Below are positions 38,201 through 41,200 of a DNA stretch of 64,000 bases, in pieces (the first letter of the stretch is position 1; every line of letters begins with the position of its first letter). This DNA is from Aldrovandia affinis (taxonomy: Eukaryota; Chordata; Actinopteri; Notacanthiformes; Halosauridae): the NCBI GenBank assembly GCA_029706075.1, contig JAINUG010000165.1, positions 1,995,258-2,059,257 on the forward strand. The letters are read 5' to 3'. Under the pieces are notes generated by a model. The model did not search any database. It was not told where the DNA came from and was given only the letters and a program-made list of their open reading frames with translations. The translations under genes were made by a program, and so were the position numbers.

Positions 38201-41200
38201 GGAGTAATTGGCTACCAAATTGGGAGAAAAATGGGAGAAAATCTGAAAATAAATGTTGAGAAAAAAAAAGAAGAACATTGTGTTAATGGTTCGGGCACTT
38301 AGTGCTGAATTTCATTCACTAGGGAACTGAATTTAGTGGCTAAATTCTATCAATTTACTGTCTACCATGCTCTTCTTCTTGCTGTAGTGGACCTGTAAGT
38401 CACTTTGGACAAAAGCATCCGCAACGAATACATGCAGCGCAACGCAATGGCCCGGACGCTCCGTCGATCGACTCGACTCAGGAATACAGAGGTGGCCGTT
38501 AAAACTAGAAGAACGCTCTAGTGCGATATAAAAGCAACGAGACGTGGTTTGTGTTCGAGAGCATTATACGGTACATAGCCTTGCTCAGTTCCTGGAGCTG
38601 CTTCCCTTCGGGAGGGGGGGTCAAAGTCCCACATTGCAATAAGGTTCTCTGTGGCTCAGTTGGTAGAGCACAGCATTGGCAACACTTAGGTTGTGGGTTC
38701 AAGTCCCACTGGGGGCCACATATACTGAAAAATGTATGCATTCACTACTGTAAGTCGCTTTGGATAAAAGCGTCTGCTAAATGGCGTATATATATATATA
38801 TATATGATATTATTATAAGAACAGAACCCCGGCAGGTTTCACTCCCACAGCCGCCAGGCTACTGAACACACAGGACACAGAGACTATAGAAAGGCTGCAG
38901 TGTACACACCACTGCTGGGGTGATGGGGGTATTTCACATTCTGTGTAATGTCATGTTGTGTGTTGTGTTTTTTTATGTAGGGCCAACAGTGTATATGTAC
39001 TGAATGTATTGCTGACCTCAAATGAATCTCCACGTATGCGGGCGTTCGTATCGTATCGTGACGTATCGCACGGACCGTGCGTGGCTTTCTGAGAGAACGC
39101 AGCACGAGAGGCGCGCCGCGGAGCCGGGGTGCTGCAGCGATGGCTGAACGGGTCCCACGCCCACCCTCCCACAGGCACACCCGAAACACTGGCAGGCAGT
39201 GTGGTATAATGGTTAGGGAACTGGGCTTGTAACGTTAAGGTTGCAGGTTCAATCCCCAGGTGGGACACTACCGTTGTACCCTTGAGCTAAAGGTACTTAA
39301 CCTGAATTGCCTCAGTAAAATATCCAGCTGTATAAATGGATTGTACAGGAATGTAAACTGTGTAAGTCGCTCTGGATAAGAGCATCTGCTAAATGCCTGT
39401 AATGTAATGTAATGCTGGCCACTACTCACACGTAGGACATGTGGATCGTTACTCACATGTTACTCACACGTTACTCACACATTACTCACACGTAGGACAT
39501 GTGGATCGTTACTCACAGGTTACTCACAGGTTACTCACATGTTACTCACACGTTACTCACACGTTACTCACACTTTACTCACACATAGGACATGTGGATC
39601 GTTACTCACATGTTACTCACACTTTACTCACACGTTACTCACAGGTTACTCACACGTAGGACATGTGGATCGTTACTCACAGGTTACTCACATGTTACTC
39701 ACATGTTACTCACACGTAGGACATGTGGATCGTTACTCACAGGTTACTCACAGGTTACTCACATGTTACTCACACGTTACTCACACGTTACTCACACGTT
39801 ACTCACACGTAGGACATGTGGATCGTTACTCACAGGTTACTCACATGCTACTCACATGTTACTCACACGTAGGACATGTGGATTGTTACTCACAGGTTAC
39901 TCACACGTTACTCACACGTTACTCACACGTTACTCACACGTAGGACACGTGGATCGTTACTCACAGGTTACTCACACTTTACTCACACGTTATTCACACG
40001 TTACTCACACGTAGGACACGTGGAAGATCTCCCTCAGGGCCTCGTCACAGCGATCGTTCATTTTGATCAGGTTTGTTGTGGTGAAGCTGTAGTTGTTCTT
40101 GTGCTTCGTCACCTGGATCAAAAACAATCATAGATTATCGGTTGGCAGATAGCGTATTGGTCTAACGCACCCGTATTTTGGCTGGTCCTGTACAAGTGTG
40201 AGCTGCCTATCAGGGACGCGCTTCAAATCCCGTCTCTGCCAGACTGGCCCTGGCCGTTAGCCCCGATCGGGGGCGGCGTTTGGCTGTCCACTCCTGAAGG
40301 AGGGGGGAGGGTGGGCCGGCACGAACTCACTGTGAAGCACGTAAGGGTGTCTCCAGAAAGGGGGTCGGTGAGTTCTGTCTCAGAGGAGGTGGATCATCGC
40401 CGGCCTCGGAGAGTAGCTTGCCCCGTAGAGACAGGCGGCGAGTTCGTGGGGGGGTGGGTTAATCGAAATAAATAGAGGGTAGAATTGGCTTCCAAATTGG
40501 AGAGAAAAACGGGGGGAAATCTGAAACTAAATTTATAATAAAACAAATTTTAATCATAAATCATCTAACCACTGTGATGAGGTATGGAGTTTATGACACA
40601 GACTTCCCCTCCCACACACACTGGAAGACATTTAGGATAATAACATTTTGTGATTTTTTTAAAAAGCGCAAACATTGATCTTGTAACAGAGAAAGAACAG
40701 TAGGTACAAAATCTGAGCAAAAGTATTCTGCTACGATTCTGACAGGGGACAAAAATAGTATTTATCAAGCAAGAGTTCAAGCATCAAGACAACCAGTGCA
40801 AACCTTTGCATAATTTTTTTGTCATGAGAAAATGGCTTCCATGTTTTACTGCATCAATGGTTTGTGGCTGCGTTTGAGATCCAGGAAAATCTGGAGCGGC
40901 GAACAGACCTTCTGAGACTGAGATCAAGATCTAAGAAGGGCAACTAAACTAGTACCAGGTATGAAAGGCAAAAGTTATGAGGATAGACTTAAGGCACTCA
41001 ATTTATTTAAGCTTAGCAAACGGAGACTTAGGGGGGATTTGATTGAGGTTTTTAAATTCCTAAAAGGGATTAACAAAGTGAACTACCAAAGATTTTTTAA
41101 CATAAGTCGGGTTCGCAGAACAAGAGGCCACAGGTGGAAATTAGTTAAAGGCAAATTCCGCACGGATATCAGGACGTTTTGCTTTACACAGAGAGTTGTC

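Follow-up and report, generated by a model that had tools for sequence, protein, structure and literature searches.

Splice donors multiplied by minisatellites are known from the human genes ABCA7 and IFI6. The VNTR in intron 18 of ABCA7 starts with the canonical donor of exon 18; it has a 25-bp unit, each copy of which offers a donor, and spans about 600 bp in the reference (PMC5954066). Retention of one unit, which is out of frame and brings in a premature termination codon (PTC), concerns about 2% of transcripts, and the PTC-bearing transcripts increase under cycloheximide, when decay is blocked; unit retention is independent of VNTR length, and longer VNTRs go with more skipping of exon 19 and lower expression (PMC5954066). 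In the minisatellite of IFI6 (6-16, G1P3), two downstream repeat units serve as donors, with three mRNA species as the outcome (PMC4526556). On the acceptor side, tandem duplication across a splice junction has been described as creating a new intron (PMC4974935). Our literature searches found nothing on an MSH4 minisatellite at a splice donor or on donor minisatellites in fish, nor, under those topics, on per-repeat VNTR intron retention or splice-site duplication.

The window, i.e. the whole 64,000-nucleotide stretch of Aldrovandia affinis DNA analyzed here, carries on its minus strand a gene that extends from 52217 to 23040 and whose exons match those of human MSH4 in the same order. We take this gene to be msh4, a name that rests on the human sequence because PDB searches gave no MSH4 match: exon 13 alone retrieved no MutS chain, and 226 aa joined from six exons, which match MutS_V at 1.2e-50 (Pfam), retrieved Msh3, MutS, Msh2, Msh6 and MutS2, with no MSH4 among the matches listed. 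The exon number 13 is that of the initial annotation; exons 1, 2 and 8 were not located. A protein query on the 1.22-Gb assembly found only one msh4, with five exon matches in it; weaker matches (40-55% identity) at three places, spread over two other contigs, were considered as a second msh4 and are interpreted as other MutS genes. The junction of interest is made up of the following features:

40009..40112, minus strand: msh4 exon 13, 104 nt, ending TCC TAC GT with GTGAGTAACG beyond the junction, phase 2
40003..40008, minus strand: the true donor GTGAGT of exon 13, placed by its reading phase with exon 14
39423..40008, minus strand: the donor array, with 33 units of 11 bp and 8 head units of 27 bp, holding 40 downstream GTGAGT and one GTGAAT
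36732..36856, minus strand: msh4 exon 14, 125 nt, beginning at 36856 after CTCTCAG

Joined in phase 2, exons 13 and 14 restore MSH4 and read HVSYVVVCQLL, which aligns with the human protein; since the match runs across the join, both the position of the exon 13 donor and its phase are fixed.

The initial annotation had reported about 40 GTGAGT hexamers after exon 13, and the count bears this out: 41 lie in the 586 bases from 40008 down to 39423 on the minus strand, namely the true donor at 40008 and 40 downstream of it, the last beginning at 39429. In 2000 simulations under a first-order Markov model of the window, such hexamers average 0.18 per 590 bases and never exceed 3. For GTRAGT, the densest other stretch of 590 bases in the window has 6. 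With the exon end taken as a ninth head, the array comes to 42 units, 33 of 11 bp and nine heads. The array thus includes the canonical donor of exon 13, and every unit has a donor-like GT site, spaced 11, 22 or 27 bases from the next and falling in all three frames. The sites read GTGAGT in 41/42 units and GTGAAT in one, so that the statement that every copy pairs well with U1 holds for all units except the latter.

The eight near-copies of the exon end that had been noted are likewise present, as the eight head units besides the exon end. These carry GATCCACATGTCCTACGT, which differs from the exon end GATCTTCCACGTGTCCTACGT by one change and a gap of 3 bases, the similarity extending from GATC up to the junction (18 bases per copy vs 21 in the exon); CCACATGTCCTACGTGTGAG is exact in 6/8 of them. 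The head nearest the exon retains the CACGTG of the exon, whereas the other seven have CACATG. Behind each head come 3 to 6 short units, and the blocks so formed are themselves repeated, Tandem Repeats Finder giving periods of 11, 60, 71 and 153. The units differ among themselves in an ordered way, with seven short types and five head types, a pattern not expected of simple stutter in the assembly. That the array is an assembly artefact, being shorter or absent in the animal itself, gains something from the odd appearance of the nearby exon 7-8 region (see below), but in view of these ordered differences and of similar arrays at other genes we regard it as very improbable.

All six assembly matches to a 20-mer of the array fall inside the array. 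When a three-unit 31-mer is allowed up to 3 mismatches, 25/26 matches are in the array and the one elsewhere has 3 mismatches (the reversed control gives 6). Exon 13 itself maps to one place in the assembly. A dispersed satellite or a transposon-derived repeat is therefore rejected, as these assembly searches gave no second copy of the unit. Since neither the unit nor exon 13 has a second copy found in 1.22 Gb, and the heads hold coding bases, the earlier suggestion that the array grew out of the exon 13 junction is upheld. The units themselves point the same way, with exon 13 coding bases in the heads and the nearest head the most exon-like. Thus, the array is probably a compound minisatellite born from the msh4 exon 13 donor, with its downstream donors as bystanders. 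Its growth can be envisaged as beginning with the tandem duplication of a short stretch spanning the exon-intron junction; an 11-bp piece (GTGTGAGTAAC) would then have multiplied via slippage or unequal exchange, and blocks of a head with its 11-bp units would have multiplied in turn, the order of these steps being the one that we infer.

The reading frame constrains what the additional donors could do. Extension past the true donor reads TAC GTG TGA, and each of the 40 downstream GTGAGT donors gives a stop directly after exon 13. This is one fact and not forty, because phase 2 followed by GTGAGT yields NNG TGA automatically. The proposal that decoy donors would change exon length by multiples of the unit fails on this account, and also on the spacings of 11, 22 and 27 bases, which do not amount to a single unit. 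Productive alternative donors are excluded by the same 40/40 stops. Thus, productive use of the downstream donors so as to alter the protein is scarcely credible, being contradicted by the frame in spite of the many good donors in a row and of the precedent of IFI6, which employs repeat units as donors to give three mRNA species (PMC4526556); a lengthening of the protein by stop-free downstream donors, as in IFI6, is not what is seen here.

We propose instead that the first donor remains the working and dominant one, with the 41 downstream units, 40 of them with GTGAGT, as bystanders. Any use of a downstream donor would place a stop right after exon 13, and the resulting mRNA would presumably be lost to nonsense-mediated decay, so that the maximum cost of the array would be some msh4 mRNA, with no selected function needed. 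The array is thus most likely a tolerated accident, which could waste transcripts and not make new proteins.

The true donor has U1 pairing unbroken from +1 to +7, with T at position -1. By a donor matrix it scores 6.75 and ranks sixth among 17 msh4 donors; its rank by U1 duplex energy is eighth among the same 17. Since 35/41 downstream units score at least as high by the same matrix, occasional use of the downstream donors is plausible, and so, to judge from the letters of the units, is their action as decoys. Such waste need not scale with the length of the array, given that ABCA7 unit retention is unchanged with VNTR length (PMC5954066). The idea that the donors are hidden in RNA structure was rejected, as the fold of exon plus array is no better than that of shuffles (z +1.67, 20/20 shuffles at least as stable).

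These scores, together with the donor hexamer retained in 41/42 units and the immediate stop at 40/40 downstream GTGAGT donors, could also be taken to mean that the array is a selected regulator, a poison extension that adjusts MSH4 dosage by sending a share of the transcripts through stop-giving donors. We consider this decidedly unlikely: the stops follow automatically from the phase and the hexamer and count once, and the retention of the hexamer is mostly homogenisation, because the copies share descent. Variation among the 11-bp units does avoid the donor, five of the six distinct changes being confined to positions 1-3 and the sixth falling among the last 8, a clustering with p about 0.007 by hand if all positions mutate alike. 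Such sparing of the donor could hint at constraint and counts against the passive reading. Yet two of the five changes in positions 1-3 are CpG transitions, and the remaining 3/4 give p about 0.06 by hand, so that constraint on the donors cannot be claimed with confidence.

The opposite end of intron 13 is also duplicated, in the form of two abutting copies of the acceptor region:

36908..36974, minus strand: upstream acceptor-region copy, 67 bp, with AG then GGTGGTC at 36913, matching 20/24 bases at -57
36851..36907, minus strand: downstream acceptor-region copy, 57 bp, with the acceptor whose use restores MSH4; maps to a single place in the assembly

A distance of 57 bases separates the acceptors, which keeps the frame and contains no stop, so that splicing to the upstream one would add 19 residues. 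In a survey of the placeable msh4 junctions (the string of the seventeenth acceptor was not found), a local copy matching at least 20/24 bases accompanies 1/17 donors and 1/16 acceptors, which are the two ends of intron 13, the best of the rest reaching 18/24.

This double duplication bears on whether the gene is intact. In the region 47176-45973 on the minus strand, exon 7 has an internal duplication with a 42-bp spacing (47115 and 47073) that shifts the frame, repeats occupy the gap between exons 7 and 9, and a human query for exon 8 found no match from 47040 to 45977 or anywhere else in the window. The copy of msh4 might accordingly be inactive or decaying, the array and the doubled acceptor merely showing relaxed selection on splicing. 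The shifted frame of exon 7, the exon 8 not found in the window, the duplication of intron 13 at both ends and the single msh4 found by the assembly search all speak for this. We nevertheless hold it to be unlikely, since the other located exons are stop-free in the MSH4 frame, unlike those of an old pseudogene, the exon 8 query was a human sequence only, and the region, being packed with repeats, could be misassembled. The exon 7-8 anomaly is a lesion or a misassembly, the second being as likely as the first; a real lesion could mean that the gene is inactive and that the array has no consequence for splicing today.

Repeats resembling the msh4 array occur elsewhere in the genome. From three pattern searches we inspected 62 other donor-like loci (10/10, 32/32 and 20/21 of the distinct loci among the matches listed), omitting one at C637 whose matched letters are identical to those of two others. 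Stop-free frames into the first donor were read for 52 of them and a 160-base three-frame translation for the other 10; for 19/62 a frame was searched against Pfam. Most are plain GT-rich repeats or lack a gene assignment, and at least three sit on exon donors, in integrin beta-3, an FKBP gene and a DHX37-like gene, the number being a lower bound, as the Pfam searches covered 19 of the 62 loci. The three are as follows, with positions within each locus:

L027, 1980-2363: integrin beta-3 exon ending AAG AA, phase 2, then 26 GTGAGT with the unit GTGAGTCCTGA
L048, 1733-2060, plus strand: FKBP exon ending GAGAGTGGGGCAG, then units of ~26 bp, 11 GTGAGT in all
L055, about 1650-1675 from its start, minus strand: exon ending PEIQ, with one extra donor copy 19 bases on

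The integrin exon with its next exon matches integrin beta-3 in the PDB at 1e-50 over 108/108 aa. All 25 of its downstream donors stop at once, and no exon bases were found in its units (best 9/19). The FKBP exon matches FKBP_C at 4.1e-14 (Pfam); its units end GAGAATGGGGCAG, so that exon bases lie inside the unit, and 9/10 downstream donors read a stop within the extension, the remaining one shifting the frame. At the third locus the next exon reads EARLKLPVLAEEQ, and we assume the gene to be DHX37-like; the upstream exon had no Pfam or PDB match and the downstream exon had weak P-loop matches below the Pfam cut-offs. Its single duplicated donor is possibly an early stage of array birth. The donors at anchored repeats in this one genome thus number 2, 11, 26 and 41.

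Donor-anchored repeats at other genes are as expected if the process is recurrent and passive. A bolder reading would have minisatellites arise repeatedly at exon donors in this genome, and phase-2 arrays, those of msh4 and integrin beta-3 included, act as built-in, length-tunable poison extensions setting dosage, since GTGAGT in that phase always runs into TGA; this reading seems to us highly doubtful. Preferential seeding of repeats at donors was considered and dropped, as pattern counts against reversed controls point both ways: AGGTGAGT pairs number 973 vs 405 and period-11 GTRAGT triplets 520 vs 332, whereas AGGTAAGT pairs number 211 vs 321. With the counts swollen by large arrays and their directions in conflict, we claim no consistent excess.

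Other repeats were observed in passing. At the locus L071 (C458:592500-597900), a repeat with a unit of roughly 20 bp extends over about 1.9 kb and includes 91 GTRAGT; immediately past it, the other strand has an open frame, which we presume to resemble an exon of a Ral GAP alpha gene. Within the window, the minisatellites at 24763-25172, 46467-46952 and 53056-53431 have related units containing GGCTCAGTAGGTAGAGC, which we take to resemble a tRNA A box; all three have apparently grown from a tRNA-derived short repeat.

The msh4 array belongs to an already known kind, since the ABCA7 and IFI6 cases are published; the statement in the initial annotation that few genes show a minisatellite seeded by a functional 5' splice site was too strong, all the more as this genome holds at least three further cases. 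The msh4 duplication resembles the reported intron gain in that tandem duplication across an exon-intron boundary copies splice signals, and differs in that at this junction only donors have multiplied, even if intron 13 has a doubled acceptor as well. As in IFI6, whose minisatellite was reportedly first described by Turri in 1995, tandem units at an exon end supply several donors; in IFI6, however, the downstream units lead to protein isoforms, whereas every downstream GTGAGT donor of msh4 stops. ABCA7 is like msh4 in that the array includes the exon donor, the units offer donors and use of the next unit leads to a stop. It differs in its 25-bp unit and its proven length variation with effects on splicing and expression, the msh4 array being known from the sequence of one assembly and having 11-bp and 27-bp units in higher-order blocks with exon bases inside the heads. 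ABCA7 also indicates that arrays of this kind can matter in disease (PMC5954066). If the length of the msh4 array varies between animals, the gene would lend itself to testing how the spliceosome selects one of dozens of nearly identical donors. The series of 2, 11, 26 and 41 donors offers a system for asking how such arrays arise and whether copy number alters splicing. Because its units still carry coding bases of the adjoining exon, the msh4 minisatellite shows in its own sequence where it came from; what it adds to the human cases is this exon sequence within the units, the automatic stop rule and the presence of several independent cases in one genome.
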